Shown here in pieces: positions 77 to 16,967 of a stretch of DNA of 20,230 nucleotides; position 1 is the first letter of the stretch; each line of letters opens with the position of its first letter. The DNA is from a virus. The notes beneath the pieces are model-generated. The model did no database searches, was not told where the DNA came from, and saw only the letters and a list, made by a program, of their open reading frames with translations. Location of the stretch: positions 1 to 20,230 of IMG/VR virus record IMGVR_UViG_3300049846_000276. The stretch is one strand, 5' to 3'. The translations under genes were made by a program, and so were the position numbers.

Positions 77-96
77 CTGTATCATCATCGGGACAG
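77..96. promoter_or_regulatory. Operator-like dyad (CTGTA-N10-GACAG)
   Basis: The two half-sites are separated by ten bases. This is the weakest of the family at the inner position (CTGTA instead of TGTC), but the outer CTGT/ACAG symmetry is intact. It contains the TATCAT -10-like hexamer at 80-85. Confidence 0.45.
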
Positions 97-122
97 GTGT
101 GCCATACAGTTTTGTCCAGAAT

Positions 123-142
123 GTGTCTCAGTAACGTGACAC
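123..142. promoter_or_regulatory. Operator-like dyad (GTGTC-N10-GACAC)
   Basis: Perfect five-base inverted half-sites GTGTC and GACAC, spaced by ten bases, lie in the divergent control region. The same half-sites and spacing recur on the integrase promoter and at 16948-16967. Confidence 0.6.
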
Positions 143-154
143 GTCATGGACTAC

Positions 155-174
155 CTGTCTGAATTCTGGCACAG
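155..174. promoter_or_regulatory. Operator-like dyad (CTGTC-N10-CACAG)
   Basis: Third dyad of the left cluster, with one mismatch in the right half (CACAG for GACAG). Its centre is 32 bases from the previous dyad and it ends 39 bases before the GTG start at 214, so it could overlap the transcription start of the rightward early genes. Confidence 0.45.
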
Positions 175-213
175 TTGGGGCTGGGCATACCGCCCTGCAA
201 ACAAGGAGAGACC

Positions 214-447
214 GTGAGAAATTTCAACGCCAAGAAACTCATCGACGATTGCGGTGGGATCAGGCGTGTCGCGACGATTCTCGGCAAGACGCGCACTGCG
301 CCCTACCGGATGATCGCCACTGGCCTGATGAACACCCGCCAGTTTGAAAAGCTCCTCGCTTCTAACCCTGACCTTAACTTGAACCATTACTTTGAGGAAG
401 CAAATGACAGCGCCGACCAAGCAAGACCTGAAACAAACGCTGTATGA
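214..447 (+). CDS. Small Cro-like helix-turn-helix protein
   Basis: A 77-residue protein whose N-terminal half (CGGIRRVATILGKTRTAPYR, from about residue 12) has the spacing of a Cro/CI-type helix-turn-helix. An Ala-Leu-Gly-type turn is followed by an Arg-Thr-Ala-Pro-Tyr recognition helix. Start chosen at GTG 214, preceded by AAGGAGAG; the longer frame from ATG 175 would run through the operator cluster and has no ribosome site. It is the first rightward gene after the divergent control region, and its end overlaps the primase gene by 44 bases. Position and fold suggest a lytic-side regulator like Cro, possibly binding the nearby dyads. That target is inference. Confidence 0.7.
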   Translation: MRNFNAKKLIDDCGGIRRVATILGKTRTAPYRMIATGLMNTRQFEKLLASNPDLNLNHYFEEANDSADQARPETNAV

Positions 448-2407
448 CGCAGCATCAATGGCGATTGAGAGGGGATGGACGGTCATCCCTCTCTCGATCT
501 CCAGCAAGAAGCCGCTCAACGAGTGGAAGAAATACCAGACCCAAGCGACTACCCAAGAAGAGGTAGACGACTGGTTTGAGAATGGAGCGCCTACCAAGGA
601 AGGTGGTCGCGTGGAAGTCTTCAACCTCGCCTTGGTGACGGGAGTCATCAGCGGGGTGCTCGTCTTGGATTGCGACAACCAAGCGGCTGTCGATTACGCC
701 AAGAAGAACGGAATGACTTCGCCCATCACGGTGAACACCACCCGTGGCAAGCACTTTTATTTTGCCCACCCGGGGCACGGCAAGCGCTTCGCCAACAAGG
801 TTGGCGGCGTGGCCCGAGACTGGCCCAAGGTCGAGGGCTTGGACTTCCGTGGCGACGGTGGCTATGTGGTCATGCCGCCATCCATCAAGCTCGACGAGAA
901 CGGTGTCGTCTCGCACCAGTATGAGTTCGACTGCGGCTACGAGACCTCTGTTGACGATCTGGGGGAATGGGTATGGGCTGGCAAGCCAACCGAGGTTGAG
1001 ACACAGCTTGACGGGGAGTTCAGCTTCGACGCCTTGAACCTGTCCGACTACCGTGTGGCGTCAGAGGCGGACTCCATGAGCGTCTACGAGCAAGCCGCGC
1101 AGAGGGTGGCGCACCTTGGTCGCAAGATGACCGACGGAGACGGCAGGAACAACTGGCTTGTCCGATTCGCGGGACAGAAGATCAGACAGGGCGTGGTTGG
1201 CGATGACTTGAGGGTGGTGTGCGAAGCCTTCATGGATGACTTCTTCGATCAGCATCTTGATCGACGCGAAGTAGAGGTCACCCTACGCAGCGCACAGGAG
1301 ATGGATCGCAGAAACTACCCCGAGGATTACGCAGAAGACGGTAGCCGACGCAAAAAAGAGTCACCCAAAAACGCAACTGGATCGCTGATCCCCATCTATT
1401 CAGACGCAGTCGACCGCCTTTTGGCGGAAATGAAGGACGAAGTCTACTGGTCAGACCCCATCATCCCCGCCGGAACCATCACCCAAATCGCAGGCTACAA
1501 CGGTCACGGCAAATCCTACTTCCTCTCAGCCATGCTCGCCGCCCTTGCTTCTGGGCACGAATGGTTTGGCCCGTACCAACTCGGGAAGCCAGCCAAGATT
1601 TTCTACATGGACTACGACAACCCGCGCCGCACGGTGCTGCGTCGTCTCAAAGAGTTCAACAAGATGTTTGGCGACACGGGCCACCACCTTGGTATCTGGT
1701 CTCCCACCTTGATTGCACCAGAGGATGGCGGCGAGATGAACCTGATGGAGGAGAGCGGTTTTCGCATGCTTGGTCAGTGGCTCGACGTGGTTCAGCCCGA
1801 CATTGTTGTGATCGACACCATCCGCAACGCATTCCGTGGTCTCGAAGAAGCATCAGCAAGTGAGTGGGCGAAGGTCAATCATGTCGCCAAGGCAATCCGC
1901 AACCGATACCAAGCCAGCGTGGTCATGGTGCACCACCGCAACAAACCGGGCGAAGCTGGGCTGGGGCGCGAGGCTGGCTCGACCGCGCAGTTGACCGACA
2001 TCGACACGCAGGTTTTTGTCACTCAGGTCTTCCGCGAGAAGAACGACGCCAAGTCAAAGGCCGGTCTGTGGGACGGCGACCTATCCGTGTATGCGATAGA
2101 CGGACGCGAGTTCACCCCATGGGGATACCTCGAAAAGCAAGCTGGTGACGACACCCGTCTCACCATGGTGACACAAATCACCTACGGAAAAGTCCGGCAG
2201 CAGACTGAGCTTCACGACACCCACTACATCGGCTGGGCCGAAAAGTTGGGCAGCAGCGAGAAGTTCATCGTCTCAACCAAATCCAAGAAGCAGCAGGCCA
2301 TGCACCTGCTCCACACCCAAGGCTCCACACCCGTGGAGATTTCAATGCGTATGAAAGTCCCGGCCTACGAAGTTCGTAGATGGCTGGGCATAAAGGAGAA
2401 CTCATGA
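404..2407 (+). CDS. Primase-helicase: prim-pol domain fused to AAA ATPase
   Basis: A 667-residue replication protein. The N-terminal archaeo-eukaryotic primase (bifunctional primase/polymerase, prim-pol) domain shows all three motifs: a metal-binding DxD (D89, D91 in LDCD), a GKHFYF histidine motif (H117), and LDFRGDGGYVVMPPS with D147. The C-terminal half is a RecA/AAA-type helicase domain of the RepA/AAA_25 kind, with Walker A GYNGHGKS (K370) and Walker B DIVVID (D471), followed by a VVMVHHRNK segment. The last about 30 residues resemble a helix-turn-helix (VEISMRMKVPAYEVRRWLG). It would prime and unwind phage DNA at the fork. Start at ATG 404 with GAGGAAG upstream; an earlier in-frame TTG at 392 is less likely. 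It ends in an ATGA overlap with the next gene. Confidence 0.9.
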   Translation: MTAPTKQDLKQTLYDAASMAIERGWTVIPLSISSKKPLNEWKKYQTQATTQEEVDDWFENGAPTKEGGRVEVFNLALVTGVISGVLVLDCDNQAAVDYAKKNGMTSPITVNTTRGKHFYFAHPGHGKRFANKVGGVARDWPKVEGLDFRGDGGYVVMPPSIKLDENGVVSHQYEFDCGYETSVDDLGEWVWAGKPTEVETQLDGEFSFDALNLSDYRVASEADSMSVYEQAAQRVAHLGRKMTDGDGRNNWLVRFAGQKIRQGVVGDDLRVVCEAFMDDFFDQHLDRREVEVTLRSAQEMDRRNYPEDYAEDGSRRKKESPKNATGSLIPIYSDAVDRLLAEMKDEVYWSDPIIPAGTITQIAGYNGHGKSYFLSAMLAALASGHEWFGPYQLGKPAKIFYMDYDNPRRTVLRRLKEFNKMFGDTGHHLGIWSPTLIAPEDGGEMNLMEESGFRMLGQWLDVVQPDIVVIDTIRNAFRGLEEASASEWAKVNHVAKAIRNRYQASVVMVHHRNKPGEAGLGREAGSTAQLTDIDTQVFVTQVFREKNDAKSKAGLWDGDLSVYAIDGREFTPWGYLEKQAGDDTRLTMVTQITYGKVRQQTELHDTHYIGWAEKLGSSEKFIVSTKSKKQQAMHLLHTQGSTPVEISMRMKVPAYEVRRWLGIKENS

Positions 2408-2742
2408 ACATCGGTCAATCACACATGGGCATTGGCGCTCAACTCGGCTCGACTCTGAACCCTACGCTTGGGCTTGGGCCTGAAGTCCCAAGACAAGAGT
2501 CGGCAACTGAAGACGAACTTGGTGGTCTCAGAAACCGTATTTCCACTCTCGAAGAAATGGTGTCTCAGGTGGAGATGCGTCTGCGACCCATCATGTCTCA
2601 GAACGAAGTGCCAGCTACTGGCAGGGTGTCGAAGGATGTGCGCGGGAACTCCATGTTGGTACTCAGCTTGAGGGAGAGCAACATGCAAATCGACATGCTC
2701 ATCACAAGGATGTGCCAAATCCGAGACAGGTTGGAGGTCTGA
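2404..2742 (+). CDS. Unknown protein with coiled-coil segment
   Basis: A 112-residue protein translated from ATG 2404, with AAGGAGA just upstream and an ATGA overlap with the primase stop, so it is very likely translationally coupled. Residues 1-35 are Gly/Ser/Pro-rich and probably flexible. From about residue 40 there are heptad-like stretches (LRNRISTLEEMVSQVEMRLR, then a second helix near the C terminus), consistent with an oligomerising coiled coil. No enzyme motif is visible. Its position between primase and further replication-region genes suggests an accessory early role. I do not recognise the family. Confidence 0.75.
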   Translation: MNIGQSHMGIGAQLGSTLNPTLGLGPEVPRQESATEDELGGLRNRISTLEEMVSQVEMRLRPIMSQNEVPATGRVSKDVRGNSMLVLSLRESNMQIDMLITRMCQIRDRLEV

Positions 2743-3110
2743 TGAAGACATTTCGTTTTGATGAGTGCGACTTCAAGCTGTTCAAGGAGTCCGTCGAGGA
2801 ACTCGTTGCGCTCTTCGGCTTGGTCGAGTGGAACCTCATGATTGTTCACGAGCAGATTGGCGGGAACGTGGTGGCTCAGACGCAGTACAACTCCGTCTCA
2901 AAGAACGCTTCGATCCGACTGACCGAGCAGTGCGAAGCCGACTTCGGAATAGAGGACGACGTCGAGAGGCTGGCGCTTCACGAGGTACTTCATCTGCTGG
3001 TCGCCGACTTCTGCGAGACGGCTGCCAAGCTGGGCGACACGCATCATGAACTGGTCGTTGGCGCAGAACACCAACTGATCGCTCGACTTATGAGGGGGTG
3101 GCAGAAATGA
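2742..3110 (+). CDS. Small HExxH protein, putative metallopeptidase-like
   Basis: A 122-residue protein with a clear zincin signature, HEVLH at residues 80-84, within a hydrophobic helix (LALHEVLHLLVADF). Acidic residues downstream (E103, E109) could supply the third ligand. N-terminal β-type segments (WNLMIVHEQIGGNVVAQT) precede the helix. The layout resembles small minimal-gluzincin proteins found in phage early regions, where substrates are usually unknown. Start at ATG 2742 with GGAGG upstream, overlapping the previous stop (TGATG). It is part of the tight primase operon. Whether it is an active peptidase is not shown. Confidence 0.75.
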   Translation: MKTFRFDECDFKLFKESVEELVALFGLVEWNLMIVHEQIGGNVVAQTQYNSVSKNASIRLTEQCEADFGIEDDVERLALHEVLHLLVADFCETAAKLGDTHHELVVGAEHQLIARLMRGWQK

Positions 3111-3439
3111 GACAGCAAGACATTTATGACTTCGCCGGGTGGCTGACAACCCGCCCCGGCGTAATGCCGGTTGGCTCAACATCCAACGCCGCGCCAATGG
3201 CAGAGGCGGTCAAGGAGTACATCGAGACGTACCCAGAGCGCTTCGATCCTGAAGGTGAGAACGAGTTCAACCCTGACTGGGACTTGGCAAATGACATGAG
3301 TGACGCGCTCGACTTGCTTGAGCGGTGCGAGACCGAGATGCGTTATGCGGGATGGAAGGAGGCGGTGACGGACAACGTGGCGAGGCAACAGGTCTACCGT
3401 GATGTCGAGGCTTTCGTGTCCAAGGAGGTCAAGCCCTAA
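3107..3439 (+). CDS. Unknown acidic protein, last gene of the primase operon
   Basis: A 110-residue acidic protein starting at ATG 3107, overlapping the previous stop as ATGA, with GAGGGGG upstream. A GTG nine bases earlier is in frame but too close to that ribosome site. The sequence looks helical, with a conserved-looking PERFDPEGENEFNPDWDLANDM patch in the middle (the Asn/Asp-rich loop is at about residues 44-64). No known domain is recognised. A strong hairpin terminator follows about 25 bases after the stop. Confidence 0.75.
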   Translation: MRQQDIYDFAGWLTTRPGVMPVGSTSNAAPMAEAVKEYIETYPERFDPEGENEFNPDWDLANDMSDALDLLERCETEMRYAGWKEAVTDNVARQQVYRDVEAFVSKEVKP

Positions 3440-3464
3440 AAGAACTACTACACTTATTACTGAA

Positions 3465-3490
3465 AAACCACCCGAAGGGTGGTTTCTATC
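3465..3490 (+). terminator. Terminator hairpin after the primase operon
   Basis: A perfect nine-base stem (AAACCACCC / GGGTGGTTT) closes a GAA loop at 3474-3476. The tail after it is only moderately T-rich. The hairpin is nested in a longer interrupted inverted repeat (AGAACTA near 3441 with TAGTTCT near 3502), so the folded element may span about 3440-3508. It lies between the stop at 3439 and the next start at 3513. Confidence 0.75.
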
Positions 3491-3512
3491 AGTGTGTTAG
3501 TTCTTAATAGGG

Positions 3513-3761
3513 ATGGTAGCGAGCGTGAAAGAATCTTGTCAAGAGCAGAATGCGACACAAGCTGGACAAAAGTTTAAGTGGTTCAAGTGCCTACGGTGTG
3601 CAAGGAATATCCGCACCTTTCTCACCGGCACTGCGGGCGGCAAGTATTGCGTCAGTTGCGGGGTCGGAATGGGGTTGAGGAAAGGAGTCGTGAATGACAA
3701 AGCCGAGGGTTCTCTCTCAGATGGAGAGAGCGTTCCTCCGGCAGGCCGTCGAGAACGGTGA
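3513..3761 (+). CDS. Small zinc-ribbon protein
   Basis: An 82-residue frame with two CxxC knuckles (C26-x2-C29 and C46-x2-C49) separated by 16 residues, the pattern of a zinc ribbon that binds nucleic acid or protein. Start at ATG 3513 directly after the hairpin, with only a weak AGGG ribosome site. Its last 68 bases overlap the start of the next gene in another frame, and that part of the protein (after about residue 60) looks like low-complexity filler. The zinc ribbon itself is convincing; the start and C terminus are less so. Confidence 0.55.
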   Translation: MVASVKESCQEQNATQAGQKFKWFKCLRCARNIRTFLTGTAGGKYCVSCGVGMGLRKGVVNDKAEGSLSDGESVPPAGRRER

Positions 3762-4017
3762 ACATTACACAAGCATGGCGACGTCACTTGGGGTGTGCGT
3801 CGACACGCTGAAACGAATATTACAAAGAGAGGGTCTGGCGGAGTTCGAGGGGGCAAAGTATGCCGTCTCAATGACGCGCTCGAACAAGAAGAACGTATGG
3901 GTTCGCCCGTGCATGAAGTGTAAGGACGACCGACCTCGTCCTAAGTGGCAATATTTCTGCGACAAATGCCGCTCTACACTTGACGACGATGACACGGAGT
4001 ACCGTTTATGGGACTAA
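3694..4017 (+). CDS. Helix-turn-helix plus zinc-ribbon DNA-binding protein
   Basis: A 107-residue protein with a homeodomain-like or Xre-like helix-turn-helix (about residues 25-46, MATSLGVCVDTLKRILQREG) followed by a C-terminal zinc ribbon (C73-x2-C76, C89-x2-C92). This architecture suits a small phage transcription regulator. Start at ATG 3694, preceded by GGAAAGGAG. It overlaps the previous frame by 68 bases and the following nuclease gene by 10 bases. A protein with the same architecture is encoded at 6519-6839 on the opposite strand, so the phage carries two HTH/zinc-ribbon proteins. Confidence 0.75.
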   Translation: MTKPRVLSQMERAFLRQAVENGEHYTSMATSLGVCVDTLKRILQREGLAEFEGAKYAVSMTRSNKKNVWVRPCMKCKDDRPRPKWQYFCDKCRSTLDDDDTEYRLWD

Positions 4018-4481
4018 GCCCGAAAGGCGCAAAAGCAAAAGGCGACGCTTACGAGCGCGAGATTGCCCACTACATGAATGATCGACTCTTCGGCGGTCGA
4101 GAGCAGGTCTACCGCGCTCCCCTCTCAGGCGGCGGTCGACAGTTCGTCTCAGGCGGCGGCAGCGCCGACCTCATTGGAACCCCAGAAGTCTGGGTCGAAG
4201 CCAAGCGAACAGAAAAATTCCAACCCTATGCCGCCATGGAGCAGGCCGAGACTGGCATCCGTGGCAAACGCGCACCAGAGAAACCCGTTGTAATATCGAG
4301 ACGTAGCAGAGTTGCGACAGGCGACAGCCTCGTGGTCATGCGTCTCGATGATTGGCTTGACCTATACGCCGCCCTGCTTTCGCAGGTCGGCTTCCGCATT
4401 GAGGAGAAACAACATGGCAACGAAACCAGCAAGCAAGTCGAAGATGGCTTGCAACAAACCACAGAAGACTCCGGGTCATAA
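4008..4481 (+). CDS. PDDEXK-family nuclease, Holliday-junction-resolvase-like
   Basis: A 157-residue protein whose first 110 residues form a PD-(D/E)XK nuclease core: an N-terminal helix with GDAYERE (E16/E18), the APLSGGG loop at 37-43, GSADL with D54, and VEAKR with E64 and K66. The D-x9-ExK spacing is that of archaeal Hjc/Hjr-like resolvases and related phage endonucleases. It would cut branched or recombining phage DNA. The tail after residue 135 is low-complexity and overlaps the next gene by 68 bases. ATG 4008 lies inside the previous gene's end without a strong ribosome site, so coupling is likely. Substrate is inferred from family only. Confidence 0.8.
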   Translation: MGLSPKGAKAKGDAYEREIAHYMNDRLFGGREQVYRAPLSGGGRQFVSGGGSADLIGTPEVWVEAKRTEKFQPYAAMEQAETGIRGKRAPEKPVVISRRSRVATGDSLVVMRLDDWLDLYAALLSQVGFRIEEKQHGNETSKQVEDGLQQTTEDSGS

Positions 4482-4689
4482 GACGAAGTCTCACGTCGTC
4501 AAGGCATGCAAAGATGGCAAAGAGAAAATTGTGCGCTTTGGTCAGCAAGGCGTTACCGGCGCAGGCAAGAACCCCAAGTCCGCAAAGGACAAGGCTCGAC
4601 GCAAGTCCTACTACGCCCGCCACAACGCACAAGACTCAAGCCCTGACATCTTCAGTGCCCGCTACTGGTCAAACAAAGTTAAATGGTGA
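4414..4689 (+). CDS. Conserved small basic phage protein (RHN...ARYW type)
   Basis: A 91-residue, Lys/Arg-rich protein. The second half carries a motif I recognise from small phage proteins of unknown function: VRFGQQGVTGAGKNPKS, then RRKSYYARHN, and the closing ARYWSNKVKW. The high charge and conserved Arg/His/Trp positions suggest nucleic-acid or capsid association, but no function is established to my knowledge. Start at ATG 4414 with GAGGAGAA seven bases upstream, inside the 3' end of the nuclease gene (68-base overlap). Confidence 0.8.
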   Translation: MATKPASKSKMACNKPQKTPGHKTKSHVVKACKDGKEKIVRFGQQGVTGAGKNPKSAKDKARRKSYYARHNAQDSSPDIFSARYWSNKVKW

Positions 4690-4694
4690 AGCCC

Positions 4695-4862
4695 ATGAAT
4701 GCACTCTGCTCAAGCTGTAAGTCCCCGAACATTTGCGCGTCGCTTGGTTGCGCCGCCAATGTGGTGAAGGCGGTCGTCAAGGTCGCGGTCATCAAAGAGA
4801 AGGTGATCCCCGTGGTCACCAAACGTCCCACCAAGAAGCCCGTGAAAGGAAAGCTCAAATGA
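4695..4862 (+). CDS. Small Cys-containing basic protein
   Basis: A 55-codon frame with an N-terminal four-cysteine cluster (C5, C8, C14, C19; CSSCKSPNIC then GC), which may bind a metal, followed by a Val/Lys-rich tail ending KKPVKGKLK. Start taken at ATG 4695, with GGTGA a few bases before it; an in-frame ATG at 4683 would add four residues. It begins just after the preceding stop and ends in an ATGA overlap with the next gene, so both edges fit a coupled operon. Confidence 0.6.
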   Translation: MNALCSSCKSPNICASLGCAANVVKAVVKVAVIKEKVIPVVTKRPTKKPVKGKLK

Positions 4863-4996
4863 AAAAGGAATACGGCGGCAAGGAGACCTACAAGTCCACC
4901 ACCGCAATGAAGAAGCACGAGAAAGCCGAGTCGCCTCGCAAGGAGCGCTCGGAAAAGATGTCGGAAAAGAAACCAGCGCCCAAGAAAAAGCGCTGA
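4859..4996 (+). CDS. Very small Lys-rich protein
   Basis: A 45-residue protein, about one third lysine, ending in PAPKKKR. Start at ATG 4859, overlapping the previous stop (ATGA), with AAAGGAAAG upstream. No fold is predicted; it is likely disordered and could neutralise nucleic acid. It closes the operon, with a terminator hairpin ten bases after its stop. Confidence 0.6.
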   Translation: MKKEYGGKETYKSTTAMKKHEKAESPRKERSEKMSEKKPAPKKKR

Positions 4997-5004
4997 CGTT
5001 TTGT

Positions 5005-5036
5005 CGGGTCACGCTCTCGCGTGGCCCGTTTGTCTT
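5005..5036 (+). terminator. Rho-independent terminator
   Basis: A ten-base stem (5005-5014 with 5019-5028, one G-U pair) closes a TCTC loop and is followed by TTTGTCTT. It ends the rightward operon 3513-4996. Confidence 0.8.
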
Positions 5037-5101
5037 ATAAAAACGAGGACGACGAACTATCTACTGCGCTCGCAAACTAGGCTCATCAAGGAGCAAGCCT
5101 A

Positions 5102-6516: not shown

Positions 6517-6518
6517 GA

Positions 6519-6839
6519 TTACTCCTTTCGTGATGCGCACCTTCCACAAAACTTGTGGTCATTACGCACAAGCGTCGCAGTCTCACGACCACATCTATGA
6601 CAGCTTGTTTTTGTCGGCTCGGGAAGTTCAACCAACACTCTCCCGCCCAATGATTCGACGACAGCCACAAAGTTGGAGAGCGTCGGGTCGTTCGTCGTCT
6701 TCCACCTTGAGATCGTCTTGCGGCTCACACCAGACACTGCTTCGAGTGCTGTGCCTGTGACCCAGAATTCTTCCGAACAATTCTTGTCGGCTTCGGTATG
6801 CTGGCGCATGTACCGGATTACTTTGTCAACGAGGTTCAT
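6519..6839 (-). CDS. Helix-turn-helix plus zinc-ribbon regulator
   Basis: A 106-residue protein. Residues about 28-50 (GTALEAVSGVSRKTISRWKT) form an Xre-like helix-turn-helix, followed by the supporting helix FVAVVESLGG, and the C terminus is a zinc ribbon (C80-x2-C83, C98-x2-C101). It is probably a transcription regulator acting on phage promoters, and a candidate for the repressor that binds the TGTC/GACA dyads. Start at ATG 6839 with a weak AGGGG site; it ends two bases before the hydrolase start. It lies downstream of the integrase terminator, so it either has its own promoter in 6883-6974 or relies on read-through. Confidence 0.75.
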   Translation of the reverse strand: MNLVDKVIRYMRQHTEADKNCSEEFWVTGTALEAVSGVSRKTISRWKTTNDPTLSNFVAVVESLGGRVLVELPEPTKTSCHRCGRETATLVRNDHKFCGRCASRKE

Positions 6840-6850
6840 CGCAGTCCCCT

Positions 6851-6974: not shown

Positions 6975-8009
6975 TCATTTGCATGCTCGTGTCTCCCCAT
7001 CGCTACTGTCTCGCGCCGCAGTCACGAACTGCTTCGCTCGACTCAACACAAAGCCCCGATACCTCATGGTCTGACTGATGTCCTCATGCCCCAACAGCGT
7101 CTGAAGGTCAGCCACATCTGCACCCGCTTGCGCCACCAAGTACGCAAACGTGTGCCGCAAGTCGTGCACCCTCAACGCCGGTAGCCCCAACTCAGCGCAC
7201 CCCTCCTTCAGCACCTTGCCCAAGTAGCTCGACGCATCGGCGCTCGTCCTCCACGCCTCGCCACTTGGCTTCAAGAACGCTGGCCCGAACGCAGGGAAAT
7301 CTTTGACTGCCAGCAGGACGCCGTTGGTCAGAGGTATCACTCTCGTCTCAGTCTTCCCGTTGCCAGTCGTGCGTCGCTGCATCCGCAGCACGCCCTCCTT
7401 GAAGTCGCGTCTCGTCAACCGCAACAACTCGTTGAGCCGAACCCCGCAATCAATGAGCACCGTGAAGTGCGCCAAGTAGTGCCGATGGTTGCGCTCCACC
7501 CACTCCAAGAACAGGTTGGCTTCCTCCGCACTGAAGTGCGCGTCCCGTGCGTCATCCACCACGGGCTTCTTCAACTTGGGAACCTTGAACCCCCACCGAT
7601 CACTGGCATGGTTGAGCACCGCACTCATGGTATTCAGATAGCGCCTCACGCTACCCGCCTTGAGCGTCTTCCAAGCCTCGGTGGTCTTCGTCTGAACGAT
7701 GTCTGCGGTAATGTCTTCCACCGCCACATCCTTGAACAGCGACACGAACATGTCGCAATGTGCACCAATCGTCCTGATGTCGGACTTCTCCATCCGCTTC
7801 CAAGCGAGGTACGAATCGACCGCCTCCTTGAACGAATGCTTCTTGGTGTTGAACTTGCCTTCGATGATGTCTCGCTCGATGTCGAGCCTCATCTTCTCGG
7901 CCTCTCTCTCGTACCCCACTGGCAACTGGGTAGAGCGTCTGACCTGTACTCCGAGCATGCGACCCATCACCCACAGTCGCCCACTCTTCCTCACAATTTT
8001 GAGCGGCAT
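6975..8009 (-). CDS. int: Tyrosine recombinase (phage integrase)
   Basis: A 344-residue tyrosine-family site-specific recombinase that would integrate and excise the phage genome. The N-terminal part (about 1-60) is the arm-type DNA-binding region, 60-140 the SAM-like core-binding domain, and the rest the catalytic domain. Catalytic residues visible: R191 (CGVRLNE), a β-hairpin lysine candidate K219, H282 and R285 (HDLRH), H308 (LLGHEDIS) and the nucleophile Y317 (TMRYRG). Start chosen at ATG 8009 because AAGGAGG ends five bases before it; an in-frame ATG at 8024 includes that ribosome site in its own codons. It has its own promoter, covered by a dyad, and its own terminator, so it is controlled apart from the flanking leftward genes. 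Confidence 0.95.
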   Translation of the reverse strand: MPLKIVRKSGRLWVMGRMLGVQVRRSTQLPVGYEREAEKMRLDIERDIIEGKFNTKKHSFKEAVDSYLAWKRMEKSDIRTIGAHCDMFVSLFKDVAVEDITADIVQTKTTEAWKTLKAGSVRRYLNTMSAVLNHASDRWGFKVPKLKKPVVDDARDAHFSAEEANLFLEWVERNHRHYLAHFTVLIDCGVRLNELLRLTRRDFKEGVLRMQRRTTGNGKTETRVIPLTNGVLLAVKDFPAFGPAFLKPSGEAWRTSADASSYLGKVLKEGCAELGLPALRVHDLRHTFAYLVAQAGADVADLQTLLGHEDISQTMRYRGFVLSRAKQFVTAARDSSDGETRACK

Positions 8010-8043
8010 AGCCACCTCCTTCATTTAACGTAACCGTAACGTC

Positions 8044-8065
8044 GGTGTCCCAATTATGTGACACC
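8044..8065. promoter_or_regulatory. Operator-like dyad covering the integrase -10
   Basis: Perfect six-base half-sites GGTGTC and GACACC are separated by ten bases, with the -10 hexamer inside the spacer. A bound protein would block the promoter. A second copy of the TGGGACACC half lies at 8087-8095, just upstream of the -35, forming an outer inverted repeat with 8044-8052. Confidence 0.7.
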
Positions 8066-8081
8066 CTCATCCCTTTGTCAA
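8053..8081 (-). promoter_or_regulatory. Sigma70-type integrase promoter
   Basis: Reading leftward there is a perfect -35 TTGACA (8081-8076), a 17-base spacer, and the -10 CATAAT (8058-8053). Transcription would begin near 8046, giving a leader of about 37 bases before the integrase ATG. The -35 overlaps the last codons of the upstream gene. Confidence 0.85.
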
Positions 8082-8581
8082 CTTTGTGGGACACCCATCG
8101 CCTTGCACCGATCAACGATGCCAGCCCAATCGCCCTCATTGAACAGAGGCATGATGCCCTTGAAGTTCTCGACGCTTCCCGTCTGTCCACTCGGATACTG
8201 GTAGACCCATTCCTCGCCCTTGCACACCGTCCCCAACATCATCCCGATGTCAGGCACGACCATCAAGACGAGACTGCCCTCGGCATGCTGGCTCAGATCA
8301 CGGTTGGCAAACCCACCCTTGACCGCATACCCGTTGGCCCGCTTCGTGTAGTCGCATCCTGTGATGAGACGAGACCACCGCTTGCTCTTCTTCACACCAC
8401 CACCAGCCTTGGCGGGGGCAGACCCGGAAGGGGTCTGCGTAAAGGTCTGCGATGCTGGCGCAAGGATGTAAGCCTCACCCATCAGCTTCGAGTAACGATC
8501 AACGACAACCTGCGCCAACGTGCGCACAGTCTTGTCATCAGCACCTGCGATCAGGTTTCCCACAGCTTGAACGATGTCCAT
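8078..8581 (-). CDS. Unknown phage protein, end of the leftward operon
   Basis: A 167-residue protein with no domain I recognise. The first 35 residues are helical (MDIVQAVGNLIAGADDKTVR), residues 45-65 form a Ser/Pro/Gly/Lys-rich linker, and the remainder looks like a compact β-rich domain (GSLVLMVVPDIGMMLGTV, then GEEWVYQYPSGQTG). It could be a two-domain binding protein. Start at ATG 8581 with AAGGAGTG upstream. It ends within the integrase -35 element, so this operon runs directly into the integrase control region with no terminator visible. Confidence 0.7.
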   Translation of the reverse strand: MDIVQAVGNLIAGADDKTVRTLAQVVVDRYSKLMGEAYILAPASQTFTQTPSGSAPAKAGGGVKKSKRWSRLITGCDYTKRANGYAVKGGFANRDLSQHAEGSLVLMVVPDIGMMLGTVCKGEEWVYQYPSGQTGSVENFKGIMPLFNEGDWAGIVDRCKAMGVPQS

Positions 8582-9962: not shown

Positions 9963-9972
9963 TGCTTTCTCC

Positions 9973-10251: not shown

Positions 10252-10429
10252 ACGCAATCTCCTTTGCTAGTTGTTTGATCTTCGTGTAGTCATGCTTGCG
10301 AACCCTGCGAGACTTGGCTCGCTTGGCAACACCAATCCAAAACGCAAGCGACTGTCCGGGCAACAGCGCAAACCACACACTTGGTATCTTGGGAACGCCC
10401 GCCTTCCTCTTTTTAGCGGGCCATTGCAC
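10235..10429 (-). CDS. Small basic protein coupled to the VWA gene
   Basis: A 64-residue, strongly basic protein with a central hydrophobic stretch (SVWFALLPGQSLAFWIGVAK) followed by KRAKSRRVRKHD. The stretch could be a short membrane or packing helix with a positive cytoplasmic flank. Start taken at GTG 10429 (AAGGA upstream), overlapping the VWA gene's end by 17 bases; a TTG at 10453 is the only longer option. Start choice is uncertain, and the product is not recognised. Confidence 0.5.
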   Translation of the reverse strand: MQWPAKKRKAGVPKIPSVWFALLPGQSLAFWIGVAKRAKSRRVRKHDYTKIKQLAKEIAYGSKT

Positions 10430-12548: not shown

Positions 12549-12572
12549 AGGTTGGTCTCCTTGTTGGTGGGG

Positions 12573-14513
12573 TCAAGCCTTGAAGGCACGTTCTTGCAAC
12601 TCAAGCACACGTTGGCGGTTGTCCATGGTGGCGCGGTCGATGACGACCATCTCGACCGCCATCTCCATCGCCTTGGCAGTGCCAAGCAGTGGGTCGAAGA
12701 ACGCATAGGTCTCAGCGATGGACTTGAGACCACGAGGCGATAGCGTCAGGCTGATCTCGCCATTGGTGAACGCCTCACGAATGAGCTTGGCGAACGTGGT
12801 CAACTGCGTCACGACAGTTTGCGTCAGGTTCGGGTAAGCCTTGGCAAGGAAGTTGGCTTCCTCGTCACGCTCAAGGTAGTTGACCTCGATCATGACACCG
12901 AAGCGATCAAGCATGGCGGTGTTCATCGGACGCACACCTGCATACACGCCGAACTCATCGCCCTGACCACGACTGTTGGCGGTAGCGCAGAAGCGGAACA
13001 GCGGGTGCGGACGCACAAGACGACCGCCATCCTCGGTCAGCATCAAGCCGTTGCCCTCTGTCGCACGCTGAATCGTGAACAGGATGTCGGGACGACCGGC
13101 GTCGATCTCGTCAAGGATGAGTGCGCAAGGCTGAGTCATCGCTTGCGGGAGGATGCCCTCGTTGAACTTGGACACGGTCACGCCGTTGTCCTCGGCAAGG
13201 GAGGTCTGACCGACAAGGTCGGAGCGCTCAAGGTTCGAGTCGAGGTTCAATCTGTACACAGGAAATCCACAGCGGGCATAGAACTGCTCGAACAGCGTCG
13301 TCTTACCAGTGCCGGTGTGTCCGTGTGCCCACACGTTCTTGTTCATGAGAAACGCAGTCGCCAGCTTGAGCACATGGGTCATGCGGAACTGGTAGTTCTC
13401 ATCGTGTGCGGGAACCATTGGGTGTTGCACGACGTTGCCCTTGTCATCCTTCCACACAAGGGTTGGGATGTCGAACTTGAGTTGAGCCATGGTCTTGCCG
13501 GTCTTGGGGTTCTTGAACAGGTCGGCGGCTTGGCGCATGACAACCTCGTAGGTGAGGGTCGCACCGTCCACGGCTTGGCTACCGCCAGTCGGGATGACCG
13601 CAACGGGACGAGCACTGGCGCGGGACAACTGGTCGGCAAGCTCACGCGACTTGACCTGCAACTTGTACAGGTCTTCGAGGGTGGCCTCGATGGACGTGGC
13701 CTTACCGCCGGTCGCCTGACCGAGCAACGAGTCAACGGCACGAGCAAGGACGCCGTCGATCATGATGCGCTCCGGGGCTGGCTGAGACGAGACGGCAGCC
13801 GGGGCAGGCTCACCAGATGAGCTACCCACCATGTTACGAACCTCGTCTGAGACGACGACGTTGGCACGCTCATCGACTGATCGGTTCATGTTGACGACAG
13901 CGACAGCCGAGCGCAGGGCATCGCACTGCTCCGCCTTGAGACCCTTCGCCATGGCAATGGCGTCGCATGCACGGGTGTCGGATGCGTCGAGGTCGGACGC
14001 GCTGATCTTGCCGTCGAACGATGCGTCCTTGGCAAGCACGGCAGACAACTGACACACGAGGTCAGCGAGTTGGTTGATGTCCATAGAGTTCTCCTTGGTT
14101 GGGGTGATGGTTTGAGTGACGGTGAAGTTGGCAAGTCGGTGACCGCCAGCGGTTGCGTCCATGTCGGACAGGGCGACGTGGTGACCGTAGCCGTAGCCTG
14201 ATTTGGAGCGTGAGTTGCGAACAGCGTAAGACGCAGGGTCGGTGATCGCATCGGTGATGTTGCGAATCACTTGGTCGGAGTCGCCAGTCTCATAGGAGGT
14301 GACGATGCCGCCAACGAGTGCGCCGATGGGCAAGAGGTCGGTGGCTTGACCGATGGTCTTGCCTACTGCACGAGCGAAGCTCGCCTTGACCTGAGTCGAT
14401 GCGTTCTCAACGACGGAACTCGTGAAGAGTTCGCGCAGTTTGGATCGCTTCTCGTCTGCCTGCATCGCATCGACACGACGCAACAATGAAACCGCTTCGT
14501 GAAGTGGAAGCAT
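12573..14513 (-). CDS. cobS: MoxR-type AAA+ ATPase, CobS-like, with N-terminal extension
   Basis: A 646-codon frame. The C-terminal part is a MoxR/CobS AAA+ ATPase: Walker A GHTGTGKTT (K404), Walker B LILDEIDA (D468, E469), a polar sensor in FCATANSRGQ and an arginine-rich lid region. CobS energises cobaltochelatase; MoxR relatives remodel proteins together with VWA partners, such as the gene directly downstream. The first 143 residues (14513-14085) form an unrelated region with a hydrophobic patch (ATDLLPIGALVGGIVTSY) and a Gly/Tyr/His segment. At 14084 an internal ATG (MDINQLADLV) has the operon's typical CAACCAAGGAG leader, which would give a 503-residue ATPase without the extension. ATG 14513 follows AAAGGA; ATG 14528 has no ribosome site. 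Either a fusion or two nested products. Confidence 0.8.
   Translation of the reverse strand: MLPLHEAVSLLRRVDAMQADEKRSKLRELFTSSVVENASTQVKASFARAVGKTIGQATDLLPIGALVGGIVTSYETGDSDQVIRNITDAITDPASYAVRNSRSKSGYGYGHHVALSDMDATAGGHRLANFTVTQTITPTKENSMDINQLADLVCQLSAVLAKDASFDGKISASDLDASDTRACDAIAMAKGLKAEQCDALRSAVAVVNMNRSVDERANVVVSDEVRNMVGSSSGEPAPAAVSSQPAPERIMIDGVLARAVDSLLGQATGGKATSIEATLEDLYKLQVKSRELADQLSRASARPVAVIPTGGSQAVDGATLTYEVVMRQAADLFKNPKTGKTMAQLKFDIPTLVWKDDKGNVVQHPMVPAHDENYQFRMTHVLKLATAFLMNKNVWAHGHTGTGKTTLFEQFYARCGFPVYRLNLDSNLERSDLVGQTSLAEDNGVTVSKFNEGILPQAMTQPCALILDEIDAGRPDILFTIQRATEGNGLMLTEDGGRLVRPHPLFRFCATANSRGQGDEFGVYAGVRPMNTAMLDRFGVMIEVNYLERDEEANFLAKAYPNLTQTVVTQLTTFAKLIREAFTNGEISLTLSPRGLKSIAETYAFFDPLLGTAKAMEMAVEMVVIDRATMDNRQRVLELQERAFKA
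14085..14101 (-). promoter_or_regulatory. Internal ribosome-binding site in the CobS-like frame
   Basis: CAACCAAGGAG at 14101-14091 stands six bases before an in-frame ATG (14084-14082). The identical 11-mer precedes the starts at 15013, 15821 and 16257, so its presence here argues for real internal initiation. Confidence 0.6.
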
Positions 14514-14557
14514 GGGATGTCCTTTCATGGTTAGGGTTAGGGTGAAGTCAGCCGGTT

Positions 14558-14600
14558 GGCTGATGGGTTATGCCCTCTCCCTCTCCTCTGGAGAGACAGG
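14558..14600. repeat. GGCTGA / CCTCTGG hairpin element, copy C
   Basis: The order GGCTGA, GCCC, pyrimidine run, CCTCTGG matches two copies at 16984-17022 and 17077-17116. A six-base stem (14581-14586 with 14590-14595) closes a TCT loop, as in the other two. It spans the 3' end of the gene at 14568-14951 and the gap after it. An adjoining hairpin (TCAGCC with GGCTGA around GGTT, 14548-14563) lies between the two genes and could slow transcription. Confidence 0.4.
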
Positions 14601-14951
14601 CGGGTGGGCGCGTGACACCATCCGATTGCGGATGAAGCTGTCGATGTGGGCTTCGACGACCTCCCAACTGATGCCCACGTTGGCATCGTGAGCCTTACTG
14701 ACGAAGCGCAGAATTTGACGGAAGTCGTCGTCGTTCAGGGGGCCGCACTCAGGCTCGACGTCCCAGTCCGTGAACATGGTGTCGTACTGAGCCTTCACGT
14801 CGTCGATACCCCACCGGATGGTGATGGTGTCTTGGTCGTTGCCGGTCGCCGCATCTTGGATGAGTTGGCGAAGGCGGTACTCGTTGAGCGTCGTCTCAAT
14901 ATCGAATGTGAGGTTGGCGTTCTCGCCGTTGAGGGTGACAGAAATTGTCAT
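14568..14951 (-). CDS. Unknown acidic protein upstream of the AAA ATPase
   Basis: A 127-residue acidic protein. The N-terminal half is β-rich (MTISVTLNGENANLTFDIET); the second half is helical with a Trp/Asp-rich centre (MFTDWDVEPECGPLNDDDFR). No known domain is recognised. Start at ATG 14951 with GGGGAGG upstream; that ribosome site lies in the last codons of the 18-codon frame before it, so the two may be coupled. The longer frame to 15170 is not credible, since it overlaps another gene. Confidence 0.7.
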   Translation of the reverse strand: MTISVTLNGENANLTFDIETTLNEYRLRQLIQDAATGNDQDTITIRWGIDDVKAQYDTMFTDWDVEPECGPLNDDDFRQILRFVSKAHDANVGISWEVVEAHIDSFIRNRMVSRAHPPVSPEERERA

Positions 14952-14956
14952 GGCGC

Positions 14957-15013
14957 TTACCTCCCCAGCATTTGAGCGATGACGATTGCGGTGACGATGA
15001 TGAACTCGATCAT
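14957..15013 (-). CDS. 18-residue hydrophobic peptide
   Basis: ATG 15013 opens an 18-codon frame, MIEFIIVTAIVIAQMLGR, ending at TAA 14957. It is preceded by CAACCAAGGAG (15030-15020) six bases upstream, the same leader used by larger genes of this operon. The peptide is almost entirely hydrophobic with one acidic residue near the start and an Arg at the end, as expected for a minimal membrane peptide. Alternatively it is a short leader that couples translation of the gene at 14951. No family assignment is possible at this size. Confidence 0.5.
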   Translation of the reverse strand: MIEFIIVTAIVIAQMLGR

Positions 15014-15031
15014 GATGTTCTCCTTGGTTGG

Positions 15032-15313
15032 TTACTCGTACTTGAGGCGCTTGATGCGGAAGAACCCCTTGTGCTCGGGGTGGTAGTGCATGAACAGGCG
15101 AGCGTAGTAGGCGATGAAGTCGTTGCTGATCTTGAAGTCGTCGCCCTTCGTGACGATGCTCGTCTCCCACCTGATGCGGTTAACGATGAGCCAAGCGGAC
15201 AGGTGCTTGTGACCTAGCTTGATGGCTTCCCATGTGAACCGCTCGAAGAGTTGGTAGACGTGAGGGTTTGCCTTGTGCCACGCCCACCAGCGTTGCTTGG
15301 TGTCGTCAGTCAT
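15032..15313 (-). CDS. Conserved phage protein (ANPHVYxLFERFT type)
   Basis: A 93-residue protein of a widespread phage family of unknown function. The signature runs ANPHVYQLFERFTWEAIKLG, then HLSAWLIVNRIRWET, then DFKISNDFIAYYARLFMHYH and PEHKGFF. The strict spacing of Trp, Arg and His residues suggests a compact nucleic-acid-binding or enzyme-modulating protein, but I know of no demonstrated role. Start at ATG 15313 with GGAGAAAG upstream; it overlaps the preceding stop as ATGA. Confidence 0.85.
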   Translation of the reverse strand: MTDDTKQRWWAWHKANPHVYQLFERFTWEAIKLGHKHLSAWLIVNRIRWETSIVTKGDDFKISNDFIAYYARLFMHYHPEHKGFFRIKRLKYE

Positions 15314-15651
15314 TTTGCTTTCTCCTTCCTTTCGCGATCAGTGGTGATGAGGTGAGCGCATGCGTCGAAGACGAAGTCTGCGTACTCGCCGGTCTTGATG
15401 GTGTTGCCCTTGGGTGAAGGCGACATCGTGAAGTGGTCGTCTCCGTTGGTTGCCCACACGATGGCGGCGAGCTTCTTGTTGTCGAGGATGACGCACACCA
15501 TGCGACTCTTCTCGAACCTGTTGGGCGCGAGCTTGAGTTCGTAGCGTGCACCGTCTCGGAAGATGATGCTCGTCATGCGTTGAGGCGTGGCTTGTTCGTA
15601 GTAGGCGATGACTGCCTGCTCGACTGGTAGTGGTGGTTGATCGGCGATCAT
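15310..15651 (-). CDS. Unknown small protein, β-rich
   Basis: A 113-residue protein from ATG 15651. This start gives an ATGA overlap with the stop of the upstream gene and leaves eight bases after AAAGGA; the ATG at 15657 would be only two bases from it. The middle is β-rich (MTSIIFRDGARYELKLAPNR then RMVCVILDNKKLAAIVWATN), and the C-terminal helix carries DFVFDACAHLITTDRERKEK. No domain recognised. Both ends are coupled to neighbours. Confidence 0.7.
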   Translation of the reverse strand: MIADQPPLPVEQAVIAYYEQATPQRMTSIIFRDGARYELKLAPNRFEKSRMVCVILDNKKLAAIVWATNGDDHFTMSPSPKGNTIKTGEYADFVFDACAHLITTDRERKEKAK

Positions 15652-15821
15652 TTCCATGTTCCTTTCACGGGTGTGTATGGGATGACGAAGCATTCGCCGG
15701 TGACGAATGTTCCGTCGGCGTGGTACTCAGGCTCACCGCAACCGATGGCGAAGTTGACGAGGCCGATGGTCAGGGTGGTTGCCACGAGCAAGACAGCGAT
15801 GACAGTTGCGATGAGTCGCAT
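15648..15821 (-). CDS. Small exported or membrane-anchored protein
   Basis: A 57-residue protein starting at ATG 15821 with the CAACCAAGGAG leader. Residues 3-25 form one hydrophobic segment (LIATVIAVLLVATTLTIGLV) after a short N terminus with one Arg, so it is either a signal anchor or an uncleaved signal. The cysteine after it (FAIGCGEPEYH) is reminiscent of, but does not fit well, a lipobox. The short outside domain has a second Cys (TGECF) that could form a disulfide with the first. Function unknown; the first gene after the 15838-15885 dyads. Confidence 0.65.
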   Translation of the reverse strand: MRLIATVIAVLLVATTLTIGLVNFAIGCGEPEYHADGTFVTGECFVIPYTPVKGTWK

Positions 15822-15837
15822 GGTTTTCTCCTTGGTT

Positions 15838-15857
15838 GTGTCTCGTAAGTGTGACAG
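15838..15857. promoter_or_regulatory. Operator-like dyad (GTGTC-N10-GACAG)
   Basis: It lies 16 bases upstream of ATG 15821, in the gap between two leftward genes, and has the same half-sites and spacing as the integrase operator. No consensus promoter was identified around it, but the position suits control of the distal leftward operon. Confidence 0.5.
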
Positions 15858-15865
15858 GATAGCAC

Positions 15866-15885
15866 ATGTCACACATACGGGACAG
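15866..15885. promoter_or_regulatory. Operator-like dyad (ATGTC-N10-GACAG)
   Basis: Second dyad in the same gap, its centre 28 bases from the first. The inner TGTC and GACA tetramers are perfect and the spacing is again ten bases. It ends five bases before the stop of the 41-codon gene at 15890. Confidence 0.5.
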
Positions 15886-15889
15886 TGTT

Positions 15890-16015
15890 TCACATGGAAC
15901 GTGCGACCCAAAGCAGGTAAAGCGCACGGATGGTTCCGACTTGTTCGCGGGCACGGTAGAACGCATAGCGCTCACCAAACGCGAGCCGGTCTTGGTAGAC
16001 GATGTGCACGCTCAC
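15890..16015 (-). CDS. 41-residue protein, easily overlooked
   Basis: GTG 16015 opens a 41-codon frame (VSVHIVYQDRLAFGERYAFY then RAREQVGTIRALYLLWVARS and M) ending at TGA 15890. GGAGG lies six bases before the GTG, inside the last codons of the upstream gene, and the GTG overlaps that gene's stop (GTGA). The composition is protein-like: β-type start, then an amphipathic Arg/Ala/Leu helix ending in aromatic and hydrophobic residues. It fills what otherwise looks like a 190-base gap. Family not recognised. Confidence 0.65.
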   Translation of the reverse strand: MSVHIVYQDRLAFGERYAFYRAREQVGTIRALYLLWVARSM

Positions 16016-16257
16016 AGTCGGCCTCCATTCTGGATGTTGATGCCGTAGAACGCGAAGGCGTCGACCGGGGACATGCCCGTCTTGCCCACGAACTTGACCG
16101 CTTTGATGCAGTCCTGCGTGTAGGCGATGCGCTCATCGAGGATGGCTCGCATCTCCGTGTCGCCGTCTCGGACGGCTTCTTCGCGTGCCTTGAGTGCTGC
16201 GAACAGCGCACGCTGGTAAAACTTGGTCGCATCTGCGACCGCGACTGAGGTGCTCAT
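16012..16257 (-). CDS. Unknown small helical protein
   Basis: An 81-residue protein from ATG 16257 with the CAACCAAGGAG leader upstream. Two long helices (ATKFYQRALFAALKAREEAV and MRAILDERIAYTQDCIKAVK) probably form a hairpin or dimerise, followed by a short SPVDAFAFYGINIQNGG tail. No motif points to an enzyme. Its stop overlaps the GTG of the 41-residue gene. Confidence 0.7.
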   Translation of the reverse strand: MSTSVAVADATKFYQRALFAALKAREEAVRDGDTEMRAILDERIAYTQDCIKAVKFVGKTGMSPVDAFAFYGINIQNGGRL

Positions 16258-16261
16258 GGCG

Positions 16262-16471
16262 TTACTCCTTGGTTGCGTTGGTGAATGCGACCGACATGGC
16301 GGTCACGGCTTCGTTGGTGTCGACCTCGAACGTGTCTGCGGCTGGCGGGTCGAACGCACCAGTCGCGAGGAAGGCATAGAAGTTGTCGTCGTCGTGCAGC
16401 GTGTCTGCGCGGCGAAGAGCGAGAAGCTGACGGGTTTGAGCCGCGATGCGGCGTTGGTGTTGTGTCTGCAT
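16262..16471 (-). CDS. Unknown small protein
   Basis: A 69-residue protein. The N terminus is Gln/Arg-rich and helical (MQTQHQRRIAAQTRQLLALR), then an acidic DDDNFYAFLATGAFDPP segment and a Thr/Val/Ala C terminus. Start at ATG 16471 with AAAGGAG upstream; the leader CACGAAAGGAG is identical to the one before the cell-wall hydrolase (6532-6522). It is the first gene after the terminator at 16503-16528, so it needs its own promoter or read-through. Confidence 0.65.
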   Translation of the reverse strand: MQTQHQRRIAAQTRQLLALRRADTLHDDDNFYAFLATGAFDPPAADTFEVDTNEAVTAMSVAFTNATKE

Positions 16472-16502
16472 GAGATGCTCCTTTCGTGGTTGCGAACAGA
16501 CG

Positions 16503-16528
16503 AAAAAAAACCCCCGCCGAAGCGGGGG
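16503..16528 (-). terminator. Strong leftward terminator after the first gene of the operon
   Basis: Reading leftward, a seven-base perfect G-C stem (CCCCCGC / GCGGGGG) with a stable TTCG tetraloop is followed by eight T residues. This is a textbook intrinsic terminator. It stands between the gene at 16546-16923 and the rest of the leftward operon. Confidence 0.9.
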
Positions 16529-16545
16529 TCGTGGGCGCTACGCGA

Positions 16546-16923
16546 TCAGGCGAGCTTGGCGAGGAACGAGCGGAGCAGAGCCAACTCGTCTGCGCTCAAC
16601 GCAGGGGCGCTTGCGGGAGCCTTGCGGGTGCGCTTGGCCTTGGCGACTGGCTCGGCGGTGAACGTCGCGACAGGCGCAGGAGCGGCGAAGCCGTCGCGCA
16701 TTGCACGCACGGTGGCGAGGTTGGCGTTCGCGTTGGCGAGGATGCTCGCGTGGGCTTGCACGCCCTTGCCTGCGGACGCGGCGGCGTTGGCCTTCGCGGT
16801 GCGCGTGGTGATGCGACGCTCGAACTCCGCGACGACGGGGTCGATGTCGGCGACAGAGGTCGCGCCCTTGGCGAGCGCGATGAGGTCGGAAGCCTTGAGG
16901 TTGGCGAGTTTGATTGAGGACAT
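16546..16923 (-). CDS. Ala-rich protein, first gene of the leftward region
   Basis: A 125-residue Ala/Lys/Thr-rich protein. The N-terminal domain is helical (MSSIKLANLKASDLIALAKG, then VVAEFERRITTRTAKANAAA); a Pro/Ala/Lys linker (about 90-112) precedes a short C-terminal helix (LSADELALLRSFLAKLA). This helix-linker-helix design is seen in small DNA-binding or scaffold-like proteins, but no family is recognised. Start at ATG 16923 with GGAGAATG upstream. It has a dyad 25 bases upstream of its start and a strong terminator after it, so it is probably a separate, strongly expressed and repressible unit. Confidence 0.7.
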   Translation of the reverse strand: MSSIKLANLKASDLIALAKGATSVADIDPVVAEFERRITTRTAKANAAASAGKGVQAHASILANANANLATVRAMRDGFAAPAPVATFTAEPVAKAKRTRKAPASAPALSADELALLRSFLAKLA

Positions 16924-16947
16924 AGCATTCTCCTTCGAGTCCGTTGT

Positions 16948-16967
16948 GTGTCACATGCGGGTGACAC
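16948..16967. promoter_or_regulatory. Operator-like dyad (GTGTC-N10-GACAC)
   Basis: Perfect five-base half-sites with ten-base spacing, 25 bases upstream of the leftward gene starting at 16923. No consensus -35/-10 was found around it, but its position matches promoter-proximal operators elsewhere in the window. Confidence 0.6.

Follow-up and report, generated by a model that had tools for sequence, protein, structure and literature searches.

Roseobacter phage CRP-810 defines a family of marine phages in which the majority of members have an integrase, and CRP-810 itself is able to integrate (PMC11288001). Phages of this type are globally distributed, with prophages in genomes of SAR11, Poseidonocella and Sphingomonadaceae (PMC11288001). 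As for the control of lysogeny, the accessible text of that report offers only a suggestion about a LuxR-like gene, and the words "repressor" and "operator" do not occur in it (PMC11288001). Another system to be considered is that of the Cluster A mycobacteriophages, in which one repressor motif is dispersed over the genome, and relatives with shifted motifs differ in immunity; according to the accessible portion of the source, these stoperators are asymmetric sites of 13-14 bp, present in 20-30 copies per genome, mostly off promoters and oriented with transcription (PMC6550527).

Here, we describe a family of 18-bp dyads, probably the operators of a phage-encoded repressor, in a stretch of viral DNA of 20,230 nucleotides (IMG/VR record IMGVR_UViG_3300049846_000276, positions 1 to 20,230), which is referred to in full as the window. 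By protein similarity and gene order, the window comes from a temperate marine phage of the CRP-810 type, of which it represents a fragment, and not from an actinophage. Its TerL and primase are 59% and 38.5% identical to those of CRP-810 (OR671924.1), and the replication, cobS/cobT, integrase and terminase genes follow the same order in both. A second record (G001), which is 99.8% identical over positions 1-12784 of the window, carries the phage leftward for another 36,781 bases.

Dyads in the window and across the phage family

Each copy of the repeated element spans 18 bp and is a dyad of the approximate form TGTCnCR-N4-YGnGACA. Its core, TGTC-N10-GACA, has seven exact copies in the window (starting at 124, 1159, 8046, 8076, 15839, 15867 and 16949), against 0.29 expected (Poisson tail 2.5e-8), and ranks first among all gapped dyads with half-sites of four or five bases and gaps of 0-20; with 26,880 possible combinations of half-site and gap, the significance is about 7e-4 once corrected. 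If up to one mismatch is permitted, 24 matches are found versus a shuffled mean of 12.35 and a shuffle maximum of 21, so that loose matching by itself is enriched only about twofold. A symmetric weight matrix was built from the six exact sites outside the primase gene and evaluated by leave-one-out, taking 40 simulated windows as the chance level. The scores obtained in this way by the six sites are reached by just 0-0.025 random sites per 20 kb. Eight hits in the window score above 15, one of them intragenic, and no position in the added 36,781 bases of G001 scores above 10.4. The one-mismatch site at 17405 scores 16.7 by a matrix built without it, which was not reached in any of the 40 simulated windows.

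The original prediction, made from the letters of the window, had listed seven dyads with this ten-base spacing, four of them regarded as exact and all as intergenic. The family is real, although the sites given as 77-96 and 155-174 are weak; the exact ones among the seven amount to five, and the list had passed over exact copies at 8076-8093 and 1159-1176 as well as a one-mismatch copy at 17405-17422. Intergenic placement holds in large part: five of the seven exact copies are wholly noncoding, compared with 5.6% of 18-mers (binomial 1e-5, on the gene map drawn up in this analysis), so that the result which was to refute the prediction, an equal density inside genes, is not seen. The other two are the copy at 8076, which overlaps the integrase promoter and has 16 of its 18 bases within the 3' end of gene 8078-8581, and the copy at 1159, within the primase gene. 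The latter is possibly a chance match; its conservation is ambiguous because the bases encode protein sequence that is itself conserved, and it was excluded from the operator count. A directional trend in the spacer (ACAyaaT-GG) had also been proposed. The extra conservation turned out to be symmetric instead, at positions 5-7 of the 12 half-sites from the six sites: C occupies position 6 in 11 of them and a purine position 7 in 10, and G is absent from position 5.

One pair of dyads is located upstream of the integrase gene, where a sigma-70-type promoter match spans both, with the -35 hexamer in the dyad at 8076 and the -10 hexamer in that at 8046. This match is the best of five promoter-like sites in 1-20000, while shuffled sequences give 6.4, and it is therefore distinguished by score and place only. 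Near the dyad at 16949, there is a minus-strand promoter-like sequence, GTGACA-16-GAGAAT, which matches 9 of 12 bases.

As had been anticipated for true operators, sites are present at matching places in related phages (L024, L025, L118, L120 and L121). The dyad at 124 retains TGTC and GTGACA in L024 (on the L009 contig) and L025, with altered inner bases. The weak site at 78 keeps TGTATCA and GGGACA in two relatives, and that at 156 is unchanged in L025 and differs by one base in L024. In L120 and L121, which are 82% identical to the window there, the dyads at 15839 and 15867 are retained with three and four inner changes, respectively, as is their 28-bp pitch. The sites at 16949 and 17405 are identical in L121 and L118 where aligned, their flanks being equally (or nearly) unchanged.

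CRP-810 contains no TGTC dyads. It holds seven TGTA-N10-TACA dyads (at 1708, 7737, 9570, 9590, 14360, 14546 and 16972). None of them lies in any of the 63 annotated genes, a placement shared by 7.5% of 18-mers (1.3e-8); the two TGTG dyads of this phage are both intragenic. Five of the TGTA dyads are found in the divergent control region and before the LuxR/integrase genes, gp15 (two dyads) and cobS, and those at 14360 and 14546 are located between gp22 and gp23.

The same geometry extends to more distant relatives. A profile of the 214-447 protein retrieved 203 IMG/VR relatives, 80 of which were kept, the presence of the gene in them being given by construction. The control regions of 76 of these (the window-phage copies L007 and L028-L030 were excluded), the window and CRP-810 were reduced from 78 to 40 by removing near-copies and stretches shorter than 150 bases. 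These 40 regions contain 26 strict dyads of the form TGTx-N10-x'ACA versus 1.3 in shuffled sequences, and 0-7 dyads at each of the other spacings from 2 to 20; 25 of the 40 regions beside a 214-type gene have at least one strict dyad. Upstream of integrase or LuxR genes, 17 loci yield 11 TGT-N12-ACA sites against 2.15 in shuffles (maximum 7 in 200) and 0-5 at other gaps from 4 to 17. This count takes one site twice (L081 and L084) and includes a window-phage copy (L018), and the set omits L035, L058, L060, L064, L082, L089 and L092, which have too little upstream DNA.

The fourth base of the half-site (x) varies with the lineage and may be any of C, A, G and T. On a primase tree, these labels require at least five changes of class, and C appears in two separate clades, since strict C dyads occur in the window and L009 and also in L042. 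In this tree, 30 of 44 rows were labelled by hand, some of them, such as L011, L047, L055, L056 and L063, from imperfect dyads; no label was given to L050, which has dyads of both the A and the C kind, and some rows are on long branches. Taken as a whole, the data support the original proposal of one dispersed operator family at early genes, integrase and leftward genes.

Candidate repressors and competing readings

From the sites, their conservation and noncoding placement, their overlap with the integrase promoter, the family-wide dyad, whose half-sites vary by lineage, and a fold predicted to be Cro-like, we infer that a dimeric, Cro-like repressor encoded by the phage uses the dyads as its operators; it is most likely the 77-amino-acid product of gene 214-447, and we give this reading a probability of roughly 0.6. 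According to this model, one subunit would bind each TGTCnCR half-site, and the mirrored pair in the 18-bp dyad would take a dimer. Binding at 124 would silence the divergent early promoters, that of the repressor gene itself among them (autoregulation), from which transcription leads rightward to primase and replication genes and leftward to recombination genes. At the integrase promoter, protein bound to 8046 and 8076 would mask the -10 and the -35, respectively. Occupation of 15839/15867, 16949 and 17405 would keep the leftward genes that precede the cobS/cobT-like pair repressed, and perhaps the rightward packaging genes as well. Such a network would keep the prophage silent, and confer immunity, or would time the early genes, and alteration of the bases that are read would give each lineage a code of its own.

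The product of 214-447 is predicted by AlphaFold to be a compact, single-domain helical protein with a helix-turn-helix (HTH) and two short strands (mean predicted local distance difference test score of 86.6). Foldseek places Cro proteins at ranks 1-4, 6 and 13, with N15 Cro at the top and those of Xfaso 1 and P22 nearby (best E 0.17, probability 0.98); the domain is very small, and E values are 0.17 or worse. VIA Z scores are about 5 for the Cro matches, a level equalled by many other HTH proteins and by unrelated entries, some of them not regulators. The product has no match in Pfam, and a PDB sequence search with it found no significant relative; among 43 members of its family, 12 match P22_Cro and 22 YdaS_toxin at E up to 1, the best P22_Cro value being 0.009. 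Among the 35 CRP-810 proteins compared, gp24 is the sole small HTH protein with a counterpart in the window, which is the 214-447 product (42%, 1e-15). Moreover, a 214-type gene is located upstream of the primase gene in all six distant loci that were fetched by primase alone (L011-L016), which is noncircular evidence for this adjacency.

All 43 members share the motif RTAPY where the presumed recognition helix begins. When the best-scoring dyad of each of 37 chosen loci was compared by protein type (PYR or PYG), position 6 was C in 26 of 42 PYR-type half-sites versus 3 of 32 PYG-type ones, and position 4 was A in 16 of 42 versus 29 of 32. Operator positions 4-6 thus differ with the protein type, which would fit direct reading by this protein, but the covariation is suggestive only, because it tracks two deep clades and because TGT helped to choose the sites. 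A recognition code at the level of single residues was also sought and is not claimed, as mutual information is high for many pairs and inseparable from PYR/PYG ancestry; within the PYR clade, no one HTH residue was seen to track operator position 4.

Several observations weigh against the 214-447 product as reader of the dyads, or against the dyads as a general feature. The protein-operator covariation could reflect ancestry alone, and none of the six control regions of L011-L016 has a strict dyad, only imperfect ones such as TGTATTATATATAATACT. Strict dyads are also missing from 15 of the 40 dereplicated control regions, and dyads from 7 of the 17 integrase/LuxR-upstream regions, while gaps of 5 and 18 show small excesses of their own in the control regions (7 and 6 versus about 1.4). 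The control region 37-213 of the window has no promoter match better than 8/12, and in 24 control regions, dyads and promoters overlap in 11 versus 5.7 expected; promoter overlap was consequently dropped as a family-wide rule, the integrase promoter of the window alone being compelling. Furthermore, a protein of 77 amino acids acting alone would be unusual as a maintenance repressor, and this one may be just a lytic-phase Cro. No match to a CI-type family was found among the proteins scanned, which did not comprise every gene. Finally, in the clade of the window itself, the HTH gene at 6519-6839 is nearly as regular as the 214-type gene (7 of 9 loci).

This last gene leads to the strongest of the alternatives, which appears distinctly less probable than the reading just given, although it has to be taken seriously: the operators would again be those of the phage, with the HTH/zinc-ribbon product of 6519-6839 (or, perhaps, the LuxR-like protein in CRP-810-like members) as the principal repressor, while the 214-447 product would either compete with it there in the manner of Cro or not bind the dyads. 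Temperate phages usually have two-repressor switches, and a search for a second repressor among the scanned proteins found 6519-6839, a weak HTH, as the only other candidate. Its product weakly matches CII-like and repressor PHROGs, and its gene sits just downstream of the integrase gene. By tblastn, a 6519-type HTH is present in seven of nine integrase-bearing PYR-clade loci (L014, L034, L035, L057, L058, L063 and L085; L032 and L095 are unmatched), as opposed to none of 17 PYG-clade loci, CRP-810 included, in spite of the presence there of dyads with the same geometry. Window-phage copies are excluded from this count, as are four loci without a clade label, all of them matched (L106, L115, L101 and L103); near-copies remain in both the PYG set (L081/L084/L089, L073/L074, L096/L098 and L060/L067) and the PYR set (L034/L035). 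An early dismissal of 6519-6839, based on a match in one of 12 integrase-bearing loci, was undone, as that figure came from a PYG-rich sample of 18.

The product of 214-447 is the better candidate for a common reader because the PYG clade has the same dyad geometry without a match to 6519-6839, and among the 35 CRP-810 proteins compared it is the 214-type, and no other small HTH protein, that has a counterpart in the window. Judging from this distribution, 6519-6839 may encode the maintenance repressor in the PYR clade, with 214-447 as Cro, and is unlikely to encode the reader of the dyads in the PYG clade. With regard to the original list of candidate regulators, 214-447 is retained and 6519-6839 stays live, while the truncated leftward gene at 1-36 was discarded, since its full copy (G001 12750-13160) matches only PHROG 2480, of unknown function.

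The variant of this alternative that relies on the LuxR-like protein draws on the dyad upstream of the CRP-810 gene, and it is opposed by the lack of a BLAST match to that protein in the window. The gene in question is gp13 (L026:7867-8331), its dyad being that at 7737, and a dyad precedes the LuxR-like gene in six of eight LuxR-bearing regions (CRP-810, which is L026, and L054, L073, L081, L084 and L097). Since it is preceded by a dyad, the LuxR-like gene is probably a target of the same repressor, under whose control the dyad would place it.

The second regulator at the integrase gene was observed to differ by clade, a 6519-type gene downstream of it in PYR and, in much of PYG, a LuxR-like gene upstream; L115 has matches to both. 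Apparently, one type of regulator has been swapped for the other between the two clades.

The next alternative treats the dyads as promoter elements or activator sites, at which a phage activator or a phage-specific -35 (GTGACA) would switch the operons on together. The right half-site GTGACA resembles TTGACA and has a -35-like placement at 124 and 16949, and the dyads at 124, 8046, 15839, 16949 and 17405 lie about 17-72 bp from start codons. This explanation is nevertheless improbable, given that both halves are kept symmetrically, that the TGTA half-sites of other lineages are unlike a -35, and that, at the integrase gene, the -10 and the -35 of a near-consensus match each fall within a dyad, a position at which bound protein would block transcription. 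About as improbable is the use by the phage of a host transcription factor, LexA or another regulator, for example as a sensor of damage or growth state, for although 18-bp dyads are possible in host regulons, the half-site varies by lineage (with the class changes on the primase tree cited above), and no strong site occurs in the further 36,781 bases outside the control-gene region.

Features of the window and significance of the proposed network

Table 1. Dyads, promoter match and principal genes in the window (scores are leave-one-out values of the symmetric matrix).
Position	Strand	Feature	Evidence and remarks
78..95		Weak candidate operator by leftward early gene	One mismatch; chance expectation of 0.82 sites scoring as high
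124..141		Candidate operator dyad, divergent early control region (37-213)	Exact; 18.3
156..173		Weak candidate for an operator, or for a promoter element, preceding 214-447	One mismatch; chance expectation of 1.77 sites scoring as high
214..447	plus	77-amino-acid Cro-like HTH protein, candidate repressor	
404..2407	plus	Primase/helicase, rightward early operon	PHROG primase/helicase matches; 38.5% identity to CRP-810
1159..1176		Exact match within primase gene	Dyad kept in L009/L024, two inner changes
6519..6839	minus	HTH and putative zinc-ribbon protein	Weak CII-like and repressor PHROG matches
6975..8024	minus	Tyrosine integrase	PF00589 5.9e-17; PHROG integrase 1.3e-41
8046..8063		Candidate operator dyad starting 22 bp upstream of integrase start	Exact; 20.9; covers -10 hexamer
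8053..8081	minus	Sigma-70-type integrase promoter match TTGACA-17-CATAAT	11/12 bases
8076..8093		Second candidate integrase operator, over -35 hexamer	Exact; 17.4; 30 bp from 8046
15839..15856		Candidate operator dyad upstream of leftward gene 15648-15821	Exact; 22.6
15867..15884		Paired candidate operator dyad	Exact; 22.4; 28 bp from 15839
16949..16966		Candidate operator dyad upstream of leftward gene 16546-16923	Exact; 15.1
17405..17422		Operator-like dyad, GGTC variant	One mismatch; 20 bp upstream of rightward genes leading to terminase

Other features were observed around these sites and genes. An outer dyad, TGTCCA (113-118)/TGGACT (147-152), found by eye, is concentric with 124-141 in the window; it is retained in relatives, although one base off-centre in L024. 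Between the divergent operons, 16967-17404 is long noncoding DNA with imperfect repeats seen by eye, which could be an origin or packaging region. An endolysin-type cell-wall hydrolase (PHROG 938) is encoded leftward at 6124-6549, downstream of the integrase gene. The "CobT/CobS" pair (10413-12548 and 12573-14528) matches PHROGs of unknown function, ATPases and also cobalt-chelatase families. The HTH gene of this phage family is also carried by L105, L106 and L107, assigned to Phycisphaerae, Neomarinimicrobiota and Poseidonocella genomes, respectively, the first two of which may be misbinned phage DNA.

A repressor-operator network is in itself of a known kind. In the open-licence literature, no report of operators in the CRP-810-type phage family was found, and judged against it, what is new is the presence of a probable operator network in this family, the very small size of the candidate repressor and the repeated re-coding of a dyad whose spacing stays fixed. 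With these dyads, the family gains a concrete regulon, a pair of candidate repressors and a sequence code from which cross-immunity between phages should be predictable, and CRP-810 and FZCC0198 constitute a cultured pair in which these predictions can be examined. A bolder proposal, tentative and on balance doubtful, is that of a minimal single-repressor immunity, in which a Cro-like protein of about 75 amino acids, without a CI partner, would silence the early, integrase and cobS/cobT-side operons of a widespread family by way of the scattered, evenly spaced 18-bp dyads, while repeated re-coding of positions 4-6 would generate many heteroimmune groups. If true, such groups would be readable from sequence alone.

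Comparison with known systems

CRP-810 shares with the window its gene order, the cobS/cobT-like pair, the integrase, the 214-type protein and the dyad geometry at matching places. It differs in its half-site, TGTA in place of TGTC, and in the LuxR-like gene before its integrase gene, which has no match in the window.

The Cro proteins of lambdoid and related phages (N15, P22 and Xfaso 1) resemble the 214-447 product in being small, single-domain HTH proteins encoded first in the early operon, with dyad operators in a divergent control region, and they are among its top fold matches. In contrast, their sequence similarity to the 214 family is marginal, the sites described here extend over several operons, including that of the integrase, and a CI partner was not found among the proteins scanned.

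The comparison of the original prediction with temperate actinophages and their stoperators does not fit a phage that groups with Roseobacter CRP-810, and the stoperator reading was rejected because the sites in the window have dyad symmetry, are small in number and for the most part lie close to gene starts. Unlike the Cluster A sites as described in the accessible text, they are 18-bp dyads, with only the eight high-scoring matrix hits given above. As in the Cluster A mycobacteriophages, to the extent covered by that same text, a single motif is dispersed in the phage genome and shifted among relatives.

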